A stretch of DNA of 64,000 nucleotides from Halobium salinum (GTDB lineage Archaea; Halobacteriota; Halobacteria; Halobacteriales; Haloferacaceae), in NCBI RefSeq assembly GCF_026586625.1, contig NZ_JAODIW010000009.1, positions 1-64,000 of the forward strand, read 5' to 3'. Numbering within the stretch: position 1 is the first letter of the stretch; each line of letters begins with the position of its first letter. Both the position numbers and the translations under genes were made by a program. The notes under the pieces were generated by a model. The model saw only the letters and a list, made by a program, of their open reading frames with translations. It did no database searches and was not told where the DNA came from. Positions 5,138-13,602 of this stretch are shown in pieces.

Positions 5138-6043
5138 CTACGAGGACGTGGTCGACGCGGTAGTGGACGCCGAGTTCGTGGTGGTGCTCGTCGCCGAGGT
5201 CGAGGTCGACGTGGCCGTCGTACTCGTCGTACTCGTCGTCGTGCTCGTCGTGGCTGTCGAGGTCGAAGCAGTCGTGGTCGAGGTCGTCGTGGAGTTCGGC
5301 GGCTCCGCCGTCGTGGATGTCGTGCTCGTCGTCGAGGTCGGCGTATCCGTCGTACTCGTCGTCGGGGTCGACGTGCTCGTGGTCGAAGTCGTGCTCGTCG
5401 TCGAGGTCGACGTACTCGTGGTGGTGCTCGTCGGCTCCGCGGTCGTGGTCGTCGTGCTCGTCGTCGACCCGTCGGCGCCGTCGTCGCGGTCGTCGTTCGA
5501 GTCGGCGCGGTCGTCGTTCGAGTCGGCGTCGTCGCGGTCGTCGTTCGAGTCGGCGTCGTCGCGGTCGTCGTTCGAGTCGGCGCGGTCGTCGTTCGAGTCG
5601 GCGTCGTCGCGGTCGTCGTCACCGTCCGAACCGCCGCCGTTGCCCCCGTTGGGCCGGTCCGCGGTCGTCTCGGCGGCCGTCGTCGGGGTGTTCGTCGCGT
5701 TCGCCGCGTTCGTTGCGGTGGTTTCTGCGGTCGTCGTGGCCGTGGTCGGCGTCCCGTTACCGGCCGCCGTGGTGGGTGTCGACCCGGCGGACGTACCCGT
5801 CACGGTCACGTCGGCCGGCGACGAGCCGTTCACCGCCGACTCGTTGGCGCTCCCGGAGGAGAGCCCGCCGATTCCGGGTACCCCGAGCGCGACGGCGACG
5901 CCGCCGACGAAAAAGAGGATTCCCACGAGGAAGAGCCCGAGCTGGAGCACGCCGCTGGCCTCGAACGACCCGCCTCCCGACGCCGACGAACCGAGTCCCC
6001 CCGCCGACGCACCGTCTCCCGCCGATTCGCTTCGTTCGGACAT
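5138..6043 (-). CDS. Membrane-anchored Asp- and Thr-rich stalk protein
   Basis: 301 residues. A short cytoplasm-like N-terminus rich in Ser/Gly is followed by one strong membrane segment (about residues 31-55, VLQLGLFLVGILFFVGG). Everything after it is low complexity: a Thr/Ala linker, an acidic tandem repeat with units DDRDDADSN and DDRADSN (about 140-190), then about 110 residues of almost only Thr and Ser. Such Thr/Ser tracts are typical O-glycosylated stalks of haloarchaeal surface proteins. A TATA-like TAATAAAG lies about 37 bases before the ATG. The frame is preferred over its competitors because it alone gives a start, a membrane segment and a biased but haloarchaeal-like composition. 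The role is not known. Confidence 0.7.
   Translation of the reverse strand: MSERSESAGDGASAGGLGSSASGGGSFEASGVLQLGLFLVGILFFVGGVAVALGVPGIGGLSSGSANESAVNGSSPADVTVTGTSAGSTPTTAAGNGTPTTATTTAETTATNAANATNTPTTAAETTADRPNGGNGGGSDGDDDRDDADSNDDRADSNDDRDDADSNDDRDDADSNDDRADSNDDRDDGADGSTTSTTTTTAEPTSTTTSTSTSTTSTTSTTSTSTPTTSTTDTPTSTTSTTSTTAEPPNSTTTSTTTASTSTATTSTTTSTTSTTATSTSTSATSTTTNSASTTASTTSS
5470..5620. repeat. 21/27-bp coding tandem repeat
   Basis: Within the Asp/Thr-rich gene the plus strand repeats CGGTCGTCGTTCGAGTCGG every 21 or 27 bases, six times. It encodes the DDR-DADSN units. Near identity at DNA level suggests recent expansion by slippage or recombination. Confidence 0.8.
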
Positions 6044-7162: not shown

Positions 7163-8134
7163 CTACTGGACGGTCACGTAGACCCGGAGCGTCCGGTACG
7201 CCTCCTCGGGGTTCGGGTTCTGTCCGGGGTCGCCCTGGTAGAGGTGGACTCGAAGGGTCTGGTTGCCGCCCGCCTCCGTGGGCGTTATCGACCGCTCGAC
7301 GCGCTTGGTCTCGCCGGCGTCGACGGTCGTGCTGAAGCGGTCGACCTCCTCGCCGTCCAGGGTGACGACCGTCGTGTACGACGTGCGCTCCTCCTCGTGG
7401 TTACCGATGGCGACCCACAGCGGTGTCGACTCCCCCTGCTGGAACGTATCGGGTACCGCGCGGGTCGAGAGGTTCCCCTCCTCGGTCTCGCCGAGCACGG
7501 ACAGCTCGGTGAACTCCTCGTCGCTCGCCGGCGGGACCACGACGGCGAAGCCGACACCGGCGAAGAACGTCAGTAGCGCGACCACCAGCGCGACGTTGAA
7601 CAGCCGCTGGGTGCCGGTCGTCGGGACGAACGCCCCCGGACGACCGAACCGGCTGGTGTCGACCGTGAAGTACGGGACGGTGCGCCGTACCCACGTGATG
7701 GGTGTCAGCCCCCAGCGGGCGTCGACCGGCGCGGCCACGCGACGCACGTACGCGGTGAGGAGCAGGACGAACGTGACCGTGGCGACCGAGAGGAGAATCG
7801 GCAGTACGGTCAGGCCGAGCGTGTAGTTCATGACGAACGCGACGAGCGGGACGAGCCCGAGACTGACGACGAACGAGAGGACGAACCGTTCGATTCCGGC
7901 GAGTTCGACCGCCGACCCCGGGTCCGTCTCCGGGTCGCGCCGCCTCGGAAACAGCGTCGCCACGAGCGCGTACCCGGGCACGAAGACCACGAGCGGGAGG
8001 ACGAGCGCGACGCGGAGCGGCTGTGCGAGGGGGTCGGGAACGGCCCCGAGCCCGTCGACGACGGCGAACGTCGCCACCCCCACCCACAGCGCCGCGAGGG
8101 AGAGGTCGCCCGTCCGGTGGAACCATCGCTTCAC
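7163..8134 (-). CDS. DUF1616-type membrane protein
   Basis: 323 residues, GTG start with GGGGGA six bases upstream and a TTTTTACG element about 29 bases upstream. Four to five hydrophobic segments: the second contains PLRVALVLPLVVFVPGYAL, the hallmark of the archaeal DUF1616 family, then more membrane segments up to about residue 210. The C-terminal third is an extracytoplasmic Ig-like beta domain with YTTVV, typical of archaeal surface modules. DUF1616 proteins often sit in archaeal glycosylation loci. The paralogue at 37.8-38.9 kb stands beside a GT-C-like protein, and this one also has a GT-C-like partner 3 kb away. Biochemical role unknown. Confidence 0.85.
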   Translation of the reverse strand: MKRWFHRTGDLSLAALWVGVATFAVVDGLGAVPDPLAQPLRVALVLPLVVFVPGYALVATLFPRRRDPETDPGSAVELAGIERFVLSFVVSLGLVPLVAFVMNYTLGLTVLPILLSVATVTFVLLLTAYVRRVAAPVDARWGLTPITWVRRTVPYFTVDTSRFGRPGAFVPTTGTQRLFNVALVVALLTFFAGVGFAVVVPPASDEEFTELSVLGETEEGNLSTRAVPDTFQQGESTPLWVAIGNHEEERTSYTTVVTLDGEEVDRFSTTVDAGETKRVERSITPTEAGGNQTLRVHLYQGDPGQNPNPEEAYRTLRVYVTVQ

Positions 8135-8380
8135 GATTGTCCCCCGCTTCGGCCTTCACGCGTAAAAACACTCCAGACGGTTTACGACCCTCCCTCCCCC
8201 GAACCGACACTTATGAGTCCGCTAAGTGCCGAACTCGGGAGTCATCGCCTCCCACGAACCGTGCTGACAGTCATCAGTCGATGAGGTGGTGGCGTCGCCG
8301 GGTACGGTCGTCGTCGGTACCCATCGAACGCTCGCCGACTCGGAGACGGGCCGGTTCGGCGAGCGCGACGGGGCCGAACA

Positions 8381-8450
8381 CCCCACCGTGTCCGCTGTTC
8401 TGCGGAGTCCGAGGGTCCGATTTTCCGGGAACAGCGGACGGAGTGGAGTG
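8381..8450. repeat. Origin-type repeats 1 and 2, inverted pair
   Basis: CCCCACCGTGTCCGCTGTTC at 8381-8400 faces GAACAGCGGACGGAGTGGAG starting at 8429. The two copies are inverted, 28 bases apart, and share the invariant core GAACAGCGGAC. Confidence 0.8.
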
Positions 8451-8550
8451 TCTAATGAGCCATCCCACTCATATAGATTAGAGAACTTCCGGATCGGAAC
8501 AGGACTTCGTCGGCTTTTCGAGGCGTCTCCGTAAGCCCGAATCGAGCCGC

Positions 8551-8611
8551 CACCGCCACGTCCGCTGTTCTGAACGGGCCGAACACACCCCCTCCACCTT
8601 GTCCGCAGTTC
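8551..8611. repeat. Origin-type repeats 3 and 4
   Basis: CACCGCCACGTCCGCTGTTC at 8551-8570 and a variant CCTCCACCTTGTCCGCAGTTC at 8591-8611, in direct orientation. The second has a T-to-A change in the core. Confidence 0.75.
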
Positions 8612-8924
8612 CGCTCCGAAGGTGGGGGTGGGGGTCTCGGGCGACGAGGAGTCGGACGGACCGGGAAGCCGAGCTCGAACCCCGTCGGTCGGCCCTGTAC
8701 CGACGGGTGACGACGGTTTTAGAGCCGATAGAGGCGGGAGAGACGGCGGGAACGGTCCCCGGTCCGACTACTCCGTCTTCACTCCCGTCGTCGTCGTTCG
8801 TCTAGCGAACGCTAGTAGTAGTGTAGTACGTTGTCCCCCTGAGGAACGGAGACTAACAACAAGAAATTTTCCTTCCCAACAATACTCGCGCCATCTTCAC
8901 CCCCCACCCCCTCTCTCGAGGGGA

Positions 8925-9005
8925 GAACAGCGGACGAGGTGGGGGGGGTGTGTCCGGCCCGTTCTTTATATACTCCGAGAACAGCGGACACTGCGGACGG
9001 GGTGG
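8925..9005. repeat. Origin-type repeats 5 and 6 flanking the cdc6 TATA box
   Basis: GAACAGCGGACGAGGTGGGG starts at 8925. A compound copy, GAACAGCGGACA at 8979-8990 followed at once by CTGCGGACGGGGTGG, ends at 9005. The TATA box of orc1/cdc6 lies between them, so initiator binding could also repress its own gene. Confidence 0.8.
8964..8972 (+). promoter_or_regulatory. TATA box of orc1/cdc6
   Basis: TTTATATAC, the strongest TATA-like element of the region. It predicts a start of transcription near 8995 and a short leader containing GGAGGT (9015-9020). A second weaker element (TTTTATT, 9006-9012) sits 28 bases before the ATG and could give a leaderless transcript. Confidence 0.6.
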
Positions 9006-9036: not shown

Positions 9037-10335
9037 ATGGCACTGTTCGAGCGCGACCACGACATCTACCGCGACCGTGATGCGCTCCGGGAGGACTACC
9101 AGCCCGAGGAGCTGGTGGGACGGGACGAGGAGCTCCAGACGTTTCAGGCGGCCCTCCAGCCGGTGATCAACGGGGAGCAACCGAACAACGTCTTCCTCTA
9201 CGGGAAGACCGGGGTCGGGAAGACGGCGGCGACGCGTTTTCTCCTGCGACACCTCCGGGAGGACGCCGCGCAGTACGACGACATCGAACTCACCGTCGTC
9301 TTCCTCAACTGCGACGGGTTGACGAGTTCCTATCAGATCGCCACCAACCTCGTCAACCAGCTCCGGTCGGAGTCGAACCAGATCAGCACGACGGGGTACC
9401 CGCTCGCCTCGGTGTACGAGATGTTGTGGAGCGAACTCGAGACGGAGGGCGGAACCGTCCTCATCGTCCTCGACGAGATCGACCACGTCAACGACGACAG
9501 TATCCTCTATCAGCTCCCGCGGGCCCGGGCGAACGGGAAGGTCGAGGACGTGAAGATCGGTCTCATCGGCATCTCGAACGACTTCTCCTTTCGCGACGAC
9601 CTCTCCCCGAAGGTGAAAAGCTCCCTCTGTGAACAGGAGATTCACTTCCCCGCCTACAACGCGATGAACCTCCGTGACATCCTCCAGCAGCGCGCCGAGG
9701 TGGCGTTCCACGAGGGCGTCCTCTCCTCCGAGGTCATCCCGCTGTGTGCCGCCTACGGTGCGAAGGACGCCGGTGACGCCCGGCAGTCGATAGACCTGTT
9801 GATGAAAGCCGGCGACCTCGCGCGGGACGAGGACACCGACCGAATCCTCGACGAACACGTCAACCGGGGTCGACGGGCGCTCGAACGCGGCCGCATCAAG
9901 GAGGGCATCCACGGGCTGACCGAGCACGGCCACCTCGTCCTCTACGCCGTCCTCACGCTCGACCAGGAGGGAGAGACCCCCGTTCGCTCGCGGGACGTCC
10001 GCCCGCGCTACACCCGCTTCGCCGAACTCGCGAACCGCGACCCGCTGGTCCCCCGACGGATGCGCGACCACTTGAGCGAACTCGCGATGTTGGGGATCAT
10101 CTCGGTGACCGAGCGAAACGAGGGTCGCCGAGGCGGGACGTATCGGGAGTACGCCCTCGACATGGACGTGGACCTCATCCTCTCGGCGATGGAGGATACG
10201 GTCGAACTCGTCGGCGTCCACGGCTCCATCAGCGACCGGTACGACGAGGACGGTCTCGACGAGGAGGCGTCGCCCCGTCACGACTCCACACCCGGACCCA
10301 CCCCCAACGACGGGCCGACGCTGGACGAGTTCTGA
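9037..10335 (+). CDS. cdc6: Orc1/Cdc6 family replication initiator
   Basis: 432 residues from the chosen ATG (MALFERDHDI). It is an AAA+ ATPase with Walker A GKTGVGKTA at about 56-64 and Walker B VLIVLDEID at 142-149. Sensor motif GISND follows near 180-190. The C-terminal part (about 300-400) has the winged-helix domain that contacts origin DNA, and the tail is low complexity. Length is typical for archaeal Orc1/Cdc6. The protein marks and melts origins in complex with its cognate boxes. Repeats on both sides, and within its promoter, support a linked origin and autoregulation. An in-frame GTG at 9013 is an alternative start. Haloarchaea carry many paralogues, so this copy may serve a secondary origin. 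Confidence 0.95.
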   Translation: MALFERDHDIYRDRDALREDYQPEELVGRDEELQTFQAALQPVINGEQPNNVFLYGKTGVGKTAATRFLLRHLREDAAQYDDIELTVVFLNCDGLTSSYQIATNLVNQLRSESNQISTTGYPLASVYEMLWSELETEGGTVLIVLDEIDHVNDDSILYQLPRARANGKVEDVKIGLIGISNDFSFRDDLSPKVKSSLCEQEIHFPAYNAMNLRDILQQRAEVAFHEGVLSSEVIPLCAAYGAKDAGDARQSIDLLMKAGDLARDEDTDRILDEHVNRGRRALERGRIKEGIHGLTEHGHLVLYAVLTLDQEGETPVRSRDVRPRYTRFAELANRDPLVPRRMRDHLSELAMLGIISVTERNEGRRGGTYREYALDMDVDLILSAMEDTVELVGVHGSISDRYDEDGLDEEASPRHDSTPGPTPNDGPTLDEF

Positions 10336-10688: not shown

Positions 10689-10773
10689 ACACCACCATGT
10701 CCGCTGTTCCTCTCGGCAGAAAACGACTCTCGACTCCGGTTCCGAACGGAGTAGAACAGCGGACAAGGTGGTG
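10689..10773. repeat. Origin-type repeats 8 and 9, inverted pair
   Basis: ACACCACCATGTCCGCTGTTC at 10689-10709 faces GAACAGCGGACAAGGTGGTG at 10754-10773. These are the two copies closest to consensus, inverted with 44 bases between them, mirroring the pair at 8381-8450. Confidence 0.85.
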
Positions 10774-11537: not shown

Positions 11538-12146
11538 TCAGTGTTCGAGCGCTCCGAGCATCTCGCGTACGTCGTCCGCGTCGGACCCCTCCAGCCCCGA
11601 CAGACCGTGTTCGACGAGGAGGGGGAAGAAGTGACGGTTCTTCTCGAAGTCGCGGTCGAACGCGTACTCGAACTCGGCTTTCAGGACGGTGTAGCGGTGT
11701 TCGACCTCCTTCTTCTGAGTTCGGGGGAGGTACATGTACGTCCCGACCTGTTCGTCCTTGACGCTCCCACCGCTCGATTCACTCGACCCGACCCCCGATT
11801 CGCTCGACTCGACCGCCGTCGTCTCCGAGTCGACCGCCGTCGCATCCGGGTCGACCGGCGCTTCGTCGACCACCTGGTCGTCGGTCGCCGACCCGTCGGC
11901 AGTCCCGTCGTCTGGCGTCGACACGTCCGGTGGCGACTCGTCTCGCACCGACTCGTCCGTCGGGCCGGCGCTCGCCGACTCGTCGGCGCCGTCGGCGCGT
12001 TCACGCTGTGCCTCCCGACGGCGACGGAGACGGTCGGCGCGGCTCTCGCGGAGTCCGGACGCCGACTCCGATCCGGTGGCGGGGTCCTCCCCCTCGACCG
12101 TCTCGGTGGCCTCGGCCGCCTCGACCGTCTCGCCGTCGTCGCTCAC
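11538..12146 (-). CDS. ParA-associated partner protein
   Basis: 202 residues from a GTG that overlaps the parA stop codon by four bases (GTGA), so it is translationally coupled to parA. The N-terminal half (about 1-130) is acidic and Ser/Thr/Asp-rich, with one basic patch RADRLRRRREAQRER. The C-terminal ~75 residues look folded, with YMYLPRTQKKEVEHRY and EFEYAFDRDFEKNRHFFPLL. In partition operons the gene after parA encodes the centromere-binding adaptor, so this is the candidate ParB-like partner, although no ParB or ribbon-helix-helix motif is recognised. A haloarchaeal conserved domain is likely at the C-terminus; its name is not certain. Confidence 0.75.
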   Translation of the reverse strand: MSDDGETVEAAEATETVEGEDPATGSESASGLRESRADRLRRRREAQRERADGADESASAGPTDESVRDESPPDVSTPDDGTADGSATDDQVVDEAPVDPDATAVDSETTAVESSESGVGSSESSGGSVKDEQVGTYMYLPRTQKKEVEHRYTVLKAEFEYAFDRDFEKNRHFFPLLVEHGLSGLEGSDADDVREMLGALEH

Positions 12147-12940
12147 GCCGGCACCTCCGCGTCCGCGAAGCCGAACTGCTCGTCGAGGTCGGCGGCGACC
12201 GCGTCGAACACGGCCGCCATGTCGAGGTCGGGGCTGTACTCGACGACCGAGTGGCCGTCGGTGAACGCCCGTTGGAGGGCGACGCGCTTTCTGACCTCCC
12301 AGACGGGGATGTCGGGGAACGCCTGGTGGAACCACTCCATCATCTCCTTCGCCTCGTTGGTCTCCTCGACGCGGTTGGCGACGACACAGCGGTCGGTGAT
12401 CTCGATCTCGTAGTCGAGTTCGAGGCTCTCGATGTGGTCGAAGAGGAGTTCGAGCGCCCGCTTGCTCGTGCTCTCGGCGAGTGCGGGGATGAGCACGTTG
12501 CGCGTCGCAAACAGCGCGTTGTCGGCGAGGTAGCCGAGGTGGGGCGGGCAGTCGACGACGACGTAGTCGTAGTCGTCCTCGACGTGCTCCAGCGCGAGCG
12601 AGAGCTGTTCGCCGCCGCGTCGGGCCAGCACGAGCTCCGGCTCGACGGCGGTCATGTCGATGTTGCTCGGGATGACGTCCATCTCCTCGTGTTCGACGAC
12701 GAGGTCCGCGATGGTTTCGCGCTCCTCGGGGTCGGTGAGCACGTCGAACAGGCTCGGCGGCGGCGACTCGTACTCGTCGACGAGCCCCAGTCCCTCGGTC
12801 GCGTTCCCCTGCGGGTCGAGGTCGACGAACAACACGTCCCGGCCACGCGCGTTCAGCGCGCCGGCGACGTTGATCGCCACCGTGGTCTTGCCGACGCCCC
12901 CTTTCTGATTCGAGACACAGAGTTTGGCCGGTTCTGGCAT
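12143..12940 (-). CDS. parA: ParA family partition ATPase
   Basis: 265 residues. It starts with the deviant Walker A motif KGGVGKTT at 13-20, then DLDPQGNAT (about 42-50) and the Walker B-like VVVDCPPHLG near 130-140. These are hallmarks of ParA/Soj ATPases that position replicons or other cargo. A TATA-like TTTAAG about 30 bases before the ATG suggests a leaderless transcript. It forms an operon with the overlapping downstream partner gene. Its nearness to orc1/cdc6 and to the short tandem arrays supports a role in segregating this replicon. Confidence 0.93.
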   Translation of the reverse strand: MPEPAKLCVSNQKGGVGKTTVAINVAGALNARGRDVLFVDLDPQGNATEGLGLVDEYESPPPSLFDVLTDPEERETIADLVVEHEEMDVIPSNIDMTAVEPELVLARRGGEQLSLALEHVEDDYDYVVVDCPPHLGYLADNALFATRNVLIPALAESTSKRALELLFDHIESLELDYEIEITDRCVVANRVEETNEAKEMMEWFHQAFPDIPVWEVRKRVALQRAFTDGHSVVEYSPDLDMAAVFDAVAADLDEQFGFADAEVPA

Positions 12941-13088
12941 ACGAATGAGTTCGTCCGTCCGAACCGTCTTAAACGTTCGTCAGACGCTCGAGACGGCCGA
13001 ATTCCGCCGTTTCTACCCGTTCTCGCCGGCGCGATGAAATCTCTCGCACAGCAGAACTGTAAAAACTCATTTTGCCGGACAACCTATC

Positions 13089-13106
13089 CAAACTAGTTTG
13101 TATGGA
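13089..13106. repeat. Solitary copy of the 18-bp unit
   Basis: CAAACTAGTTTGTATGGA matches units 5-7 of the array 350 bases further right and contains the palindrome AAACTAGTTT. It is about 150 bases upstream of parA. Confidence 0.5.
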
Positions 13107-13250
13107 CGTCTGCGCCGAACTACCGAGGCTGGTAGCACCCCCGAAGCCATCGGACCTCCGAGATCGGCCCGACCCGGGCCGGCCACACGCTCGAGACCGG
13201 CCCGAAGAGACTACTCGTCCAGGGGGAGCCTCGACGGTCGACTCCCATCC

Positions 13251-13322
13251 GACTCCTCCAGCTCGTCCGATTCGTCCGACCCACTCGACCCGTCAAATTC
13301 GTCTTGTCCGTCCGACTCGTCC
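13251..13322. repeat. 9-bp degenerate tandem repeat, eight units
   Basis: Consecutive 9-mers near GAYTCGTCC (GACTCCTCC, AGCTCGTCC, GATTCGTCC, through GACTCGTCC). Non-coding, upstream of parA. Confidence 0.6.
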
Positions 13323-13440
13323 AAACACGGTACCGGCGACGCTCGCTCACTGGTTCTATCGACCGCAGCACCACGGAAGTCGCTCGAGGCGTCCGGAAGG
13401 GAGCCGGAGCGACCCGTGGGAGCCGACGACGCGTCCCGAC

Positions 13441-13602
13441 CGACCCGGCTCTCACGACCGAGCCGGTTCTCACGACCGAGCCGGTTCTCACGGCCGAACC
13501 GGTTCTATCGTCCAAACTGGTTCTGCCACTTTGACTAGTTTCTTCGTCTATACTAGTTTTGCCGTCAAAACCCGTTCTGCTGTCCAGGCCGGCTCTCTTC
13601 GT
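13441..13602. repeat. 18-bp tandem repeat, nine units; candidate partition site
   Basis: Nine head-to-tail 18-mers start at 13441 and then every 18 bases (CGAGCCGGTTCTCACGAC and its variants). Positions 5-12 (CYRGTTYT) are best kept; outer positions drift from GC-rich on the left to AT-rich on the right (for example TATACTAGTTTTGCCGTC). Units continue past stop codons in the frames they create, so they are selected as DNA, not as protein. The array lies 500 bases upstream of parA, where iterated centromere sites are often found. Confidence 0.7.

Follow-up and report, generated by a model that had tools for sequence, protein, structure and literature searches.

A Lattice of 9-bp Half-Sites Upstream of a Haloarchaeal parA Gene as a Candidate Plasmid Centromere

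An array with an 18-bp period lies upstream of a parA gene in a 64,000-nucleotide stretch of Halobium salinum DNA (positions 1 to 64,000 of contig NZ_JAODIW010000009.1, hereafter called the window). An earlier sequence-only reading had proposed this array as a candidate centromere, which raises the questions of whether the locus indeed carries the site of a plasmid partition system, what the true unit of the repeat is, and which protein might read it.

The main array and its half-site

The existence of a nine-unit, 18-bp array was confirmed by two approaches. Over 144 bp from position 13441, self-matching at a lag of 18 yields 98 of 144 identities, whereas the window averages 47 (sd 9.4), and the remaining lags at this position yield 24–47 matches, with the exception of lag 36 (79). 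TRF independently calls repeats at 13437–13506 (3.9 copies, 92% matches) and at 13437–13524. The register of the half-sites shifts the array from its originally reported position (13441–13602) to 13437–13598, and the feature, a candidate parS/centromere, is assigned to neither strand. The array is non-coding; it resides within a 1.17-kb gap between the start of parA (12940, minus strand) and the start of a ribose-5-phosphate isomerase gene (14115, plus strand). A two-unit pattern with at most three mismatches yields eight matches in the whole 4.46-Mb assembly, all of them within the main array, and a reversed-pattern control yields none in the same assembly.

Although 18 bp had been taken as the basic unit, this is now replaced by 9 bp. 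The pattern CCRAACYRGTTY had no match in the Haloglomus and Halomarina loci, so the 18-bp unit proved to be the wrong search unit, and this failure led to the 9-bp half-site. The nine units comprise 18 half-sites, in which a forward GTTYGGACG (on the parA-sense strand) alternates with a reverse NNARAACYR; read on this strand from 13598 to 13437, examples of the 9-mers are GTTTGGACG ATAGAACCG GTTCGGCCG TGAGAACCG. Each 18-bp period therefore consists of a forward half-site and a reversed one, and AACYRGTT is the junction of this inverted pair. The drift in composition described earlier is not monotonic, in that units 1–4 are GC-rich, units 5–7 are AT-richer and unit 9 is GC-rich again.

Further half-sites are located between the main array and parA. 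A second run at 13246–13326 (minus strand), missed in the sequence-only reading, carries approximately nine degenerate direct half-sites at an exact 9-bp step (GTTTGGACG AGTCGGACG ... AATCGGACG). Its combined lag-9 score is 49.7, and none of 500 shuffles equals this value (mean 10.7, maximum 30.7). A third run of in-phase half-sites, assigned to neither strand, occupies 13049–13120 and includes the palindrome CAAACTAGTTTG (13089–13100), such that the copy at 13089 once described as isolated belongs to a longer series. A scan of the whole window for in-phase half-sites finds a single strong cluster, located upstream of parA. The window locus has 36 in-phase pairs, compared with a shuffle maximum of 4.

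A 9-bp step beside parA in relatives

The parA loci of relatives were drawn from three sources, namely whole genomes, named genomes and plasmids. Same-orientation GTTYK pairs in the 700 bp ahead of parA fall in phase modulo 9 in 178 cases, versus 12–30 for each of the other classes. Pairs of opposite orientation exhibit the same preference, with 46 in the lattice-predicted class versus at most 14 elsewhere, and 27 versus at most 16. The phase distribution is flat from 0.8 to 4 kb upstream of parA. When loci were evaluated individually, shuffled sequences were never as good as the actual sequence for the window, G017, G024, three Halobaculum loci, Halomarina, Haladaptatus, Halomicrococcus, Haloarcula pHsi540 and others.

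The same step is evident when no motif is specified. For 26 relatives, with the window excluded, the lag spectrum yields z values of 14.1, 12.5, 10.1 and 8.5 at lags 9, 18, 27 and 36, compared with 0.9–3.1 at lags 6, 12, 15, 21 and 24. Codon periodicity was rejected as the source of this signal because the signal at lags 6, 12, 15 and 21 is strong inside genes but almost nil upstream of parA. An independent set was assembled from plasmids found via the C-terminal domain of the protein encoded after parA (the partner), representing a distant subgroup whose partners are 33–37% identical and including ten plasmids with an annotated full-length parA. Upstream of parA, period 9 is the best in 10 of these 10 plasmids (z values of 19.1, 18.7, 15.4 and 10.8 at lags 9, 18, 27 and 36), and no period-9 signal is present in the 300 bp downstream.

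The sequence-only reading had named the absence of an array beside orthologous parA genes as an observation that would count decisively against it. Instead, arrays on a 9-bp step reside upstream of parA in most relatives that have the partner gene, as well as in all ten plasmids added later. Half-site sequence, orientation pattern and position vary between plasmids, and the 9-bp step is constant. For example, the window alternates forward and reverse half-sites, whereas in Halobaculum most half-sites point the same way along a stretch exceeding 400 bp. The half-site is MCGAACNNA in the distant subgroup and GTTGTGAGA in G053. Promoter-proximal sites alone are present in Hbt. salinarum pHS4, Halovenus and G020. 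Haloglomus irregulare has no array upstream of parA and carries approximately eight direct GTTYGGAYR half-sites about 3.5 kb downstream (L036, about 7480–7560). A nucleotide search of the intergenic region against plasmids yielded just a 32-bp chance-like match, suggesting that the sequence turns over while the 9-bp step persists. The two other ParA loci of the host, L088 (contig C10) and L089 (contig C5), carry 9-bp runs of CRCCGAACG and AGAAACACC, and the differing half-sites at its three par loci are possibly replicon identity codes.

A separate ParA family (L037–L044) was encountered in Halovenus and Haloarcula, in which the product of the overlapping downstream gene combines a long linker with a CheW-like domain. 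This family perhaps positions chemotaxis arrays. Seven ParA genes whose partner is of the CheW type show no half-site lattice.

The parA promoter, the replicon and competing explanations

Based on these sequence comparisons, we consider it probable that a ParA-type plasmid partition system has its centromere (parS) in this array, and that the same half-site serves as the operator of the parA-partner operon. The core of the original proposal is supported by the arrays found beside parA with the same partner in relatives, but its unit and extent have been revised and the operator role has been added. Clustered cis-acting repeats are present at the par locus, as is typical of ParA-type systems, and as in type Ib systems the short half-sites are direct or inverted and overlap the par promoter. 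Counted against a parS function are the few sites in several orthologs, the distance of 500 bp between the main array and parA in the window, and the unrecognised fold of the partner.

Candidate operator sites lie at 12938–12964 (minus strand), where the half-sites GTTCGGACG/GACGAACTC/ATTCGTATG occupy a position conserved in relatives and the last one reaches into the parA start codon. They are preceded by a TATA-like TTTAAG (12968–12973, minus strand) that ends approximately 28 bp ahead of the ATG, and by a conserved GTCTGACG element (12978–12985, minus strand). Most relatives exhibit the same order of GTCTGACG, TATA-like box and two to three half-sites up to the ATG. The GTCTGACG element is also common to the parA promoters of haloviruses phiH1, phiCh1 and ChaoS9, which share its arrangement with the TATA box. 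The annotation of the halovirus phiH record places the mapped T7 transcript start 5 nucleotides before the phiH parA, and the parA transcript of the window is expected to be leaderless. Occupied promoter-proximal half-sites would cover the transcription start, and autorepression is therefore predicted.

This arrangement could also mean that the lattice is a transcriptional operator only, used for cooperative autorepression of the parA operon, with the true centromere located elsewhere. In its favour, sites cover parts of both the promoter and the start codon, in most relatives as well as in the window, and some loci (pHS4, Halovenus and G020) have promoter-proximal sites alone. We nevertheless regard it as unlikely, because the main array of the window is situated 500 bp upstream of parA and the more than 400 bp of array in Halobaculum exceed the need of an operator. 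Moreover, the Haloglomus array retains the half-site at a distance of 3.5 kb from parA, a position more in keeping with a cis-acting site than with an operator alone.

Other explanations draw on the surrounding genes. An orc1/cdc6 replication initiator gene (9037–10335, plus strand; TIGR02928, E=1e-132) adjoins the par locus at about 3 kb. Halomarina, Haladaptatus and Haloferax gibbonsii pHG4 likewise have this gene close to parA. Inverted GAACAGCGGAC repeats lie on either side of the orc1/cdc6 start (8380–9005, neither strand assigned), and such repeats with G-rich flanks surround the gene at 8380–9005 and 10689–10773; they are probable replication origin elements. The window contig (C14) is probably a secondary replicon, a reading consistent with a second rpiA on contig C11 of the host genome that is 54% identical to the isomerase gene beside the array. 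Elsewhere in the window, ARAGORN calls tRNA-Ser(cga) at 5479–5620 within a 75-bp tandem repeat, and this call, made in repetitive DNA, is probably spurious.

Because orc1/cdc6 is clustered with parA and the partner gene on several plasmids, the array might be viewed as a set of replication-origin iterons read by the neighbouring Orc1/Cdc6 or by another initiator. However, the orc gene has its own inverted repeats of unrelated sequence (GAACAGCGGAC, which differs from the par half-site GTTYGGACG), and the lattice tracks parA and its partner even where no orc gene resides within 4 kb, leaving iterons as a very improbable explanation. Functionless expansion of a tandem satellite, which the three nearly identical adjacent units recall as if recently duplicated, is scarcely credible given that orientation switches at a kept 9-bp phase are not a product of slippage, that diverged plasmids keep the step with other half-sites, and that the array is single in the genome. 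Equally implausible is a regulatory array for the divergent isomerase homologue, which begins approximately 520 bp from the array across the shared intergenic region, or for another non-Par regulator, since the gene on the far side of the lattice changes among relatives (integrase, mcm, GrpB-like, transporter and others) and the lattice stays with parA.

The partner protein and known partition systems

If the array is a centromere, its reader would be encoded by the par operon itself. The parA gene (12143–12940, minus strand) codes for a 265-amino-acid Walker ATPase of the ParA/Soj family (AAA_31, E=1.4e-43; NCBIfam ParA_partition, 1.3e-30, which is below the cutoff of that model). KGGVGKT is present, with the Walker motif from residue 14 onward, and the small size and the lack of an N-terminal helix-turn-helix domain are features of type Ib proteins. 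The partner gene (11538–12146, minus strand; 202 amino acids, GTG start) overlaps the parA stop by 4 bp, and this overlap is kept in nearly all relatives, in agreement with its earlier description as a coupled partner. The protein begins with a basic SRADRLRRRR, followed by a linker and a conserved C-terminal domain of 79 residues. The family as a whole shares this architecture, although the linker varies, and the C-domain, about 75 residues long, carries the near-invariant motif VK..YMYLP..KNRHFYPLVV.

The C-domain was found in 63 plasmid records, of which 60 were listed, every one of them haloarchaeal, and the protein is called a 'hypothetical protein' wherever annotated. The partner has no match among Pfam, NCBIfam or PDB sequences, and Pfam and NCBIfam detect no ParB N-terminal domain in it. 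PHROGs yields families of unknown function only, and a scan of viral contigs yields one locus. An AlphaFold monomer model (pLDDT 85) exhibits an unstructured TYMYLP segment and, after it, two long helices (19–40 and 46–62) and a further helix (67–78). This arrangement would be compatible with a ribbon-helix-helix monomer whose first helix is enlarged. However, two AlphaFold monomer models have no significant match in Foldseek, and hhalign finds no match between the partner and omega; we do not claim a ribbon-helix-helix fold because Foldseek, the PDB sequence search and hhalign gave no support. We propose the partner as the centromere-binding protein.

In relatives, the binding sites may even extend into the gene for this protein. 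The linker sequences S-E-P, S-K-P and A-E-P are translations of TCC-RAA-CCG, which is the half-site CGTCCRAAC in reverse reading, and in-frame half-sites occur in the linkers of partner genes L080, L081, L082, L036, L096, L097, L099 and L102 and of L121–L130. Linkers contain 25 occurrences of CCRAAC, whereas drawing codons anew from these genes gives 5.8 ± 2.0, and none of 1000 such draws reaches the observed count. Codon choice before C is also skewed, with GAA:GAG at 45:11 in linkers and 153:146 elsewhere, and AAA:AAG at 26:4 and 29:42, respectively. ACGAAC, on which the upstream half-site of the distant subgroup is based, also occurs in the linkers of that subgroup (T-N-E), with 12 ACGAAC and 4 CCRAAC. 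The first group has 4 ACGAAC and 23 CCRAAC.

We tentatively suggest, with slightly more doubt than confidence, that these low-complexity linkers (SEP/SKP or NET/KTN group) are in-frame translations of tandem 9-bp half-sites, and that their length and composition are partly set by DNA-level selection for binding sites. An alternative is repeat expansion under an acidic-protein bias. This suggestion is based on the codon and motif tests and not on k-mer matches of each linker to its own upstream region, which are only modestly above controls owing to shared base composition. The linker of the partner in the window is free of in-frame half-sites.

A partition mechanism can be outlined on this basis. 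The DNA-binding protein would be encoded by the overlapping partner gene, and its C-domain, through which we infer dimerisation, would read a degenerate 9-bp half-site in either orientation at a fixed 9-bp step. Partner molecules could then pack side by side along the lattice, and the basic N-terminus, as in analogous systems, would contact ParA and trigger ATP hydrolysis, such that the partner-array complex moves the replicon with a ParA gradient. Occupied sites between the TATA box and the start codon would at the same time repress the parA-partner operon.

Although haloarchaea carry many co-resident replicons, our searches of the open-access literature found neither a centromere nor a centromere-binding protein described for their plasmids and megaplasmids. 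The present analysis offers predictions of the site and of its reader, which is at present a 'hypothetical protein' wherever annotated, and a rule that recurs across haloarchaeal genera, namely a 9-bp step with a replicon-specific half-site. The different 9-bp arrays at the other two par loci of the host suggest how co-resident replicons could keep separate identities. Possible uses in haloarchaea include stabilisation cassettes and DNA-labelling tags.

Several known systems share parts of this organisation. The AspA-ParBA system of pNOB8 likewise concerns an archaeal plasmid and has its site upstream of the operon, but its three genes, single 23-bp palindrome with spreading, and winged-helix AspA (PMC5120986) are all absent here. 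In SegAB of the Sulfolobales, similarly, the gene for an archaeal ParA homologue overlaps the next gene downstream, which encodes the DNA-binding SegB, and sites lie just upstream of segA. However, the 13-bp SegB palindrome TCTAGASTCTAGA is scattered over the chromosome (PMC5120986, PMC12284271), whereas the window carries a single clustered 9-bp lattice of unrelated, non-SegB sequence that is probably plasmid-borne. Secondary replicons of Deinococcus radiodurans also carry direct-repeat arrays upstream of parAB, a likeness in position, although those parAB genes are bacterial (PMC7671480). Haloviruses phiH1, phiCh1 and ChaoS9 (PMC6471424), which form plasmid-like proviruses, have a homologous ParA and the same GTCTGACG and TATA promoter, with phiH1 also matching the partner domain, but unlike the window they have no notable 9-bp array upstream of parA.

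The closest parallel is the delta/omega/parS system of pSM19035 (type Ib, with a ribbon-helix-helix ParB), in which 7–10 copies of contiguous, non-palindromic 7-bp repeats overlap the par promoters, and at least four contiguous sites, in either orientation, are required for ParA activation (PMC9499535). The two loci differ in that the window has a 9-bp step, another sequence, and a two-gene archaeal operon whose partner follows parA and has no detectable similarity to omega. They share short contiguous sites, direct or inverted, that extend over the par promoter. By analogy with pSM19035, we propose that packing of the partner on the lattice drives partition, and that the array works like a type-Ib partition site.
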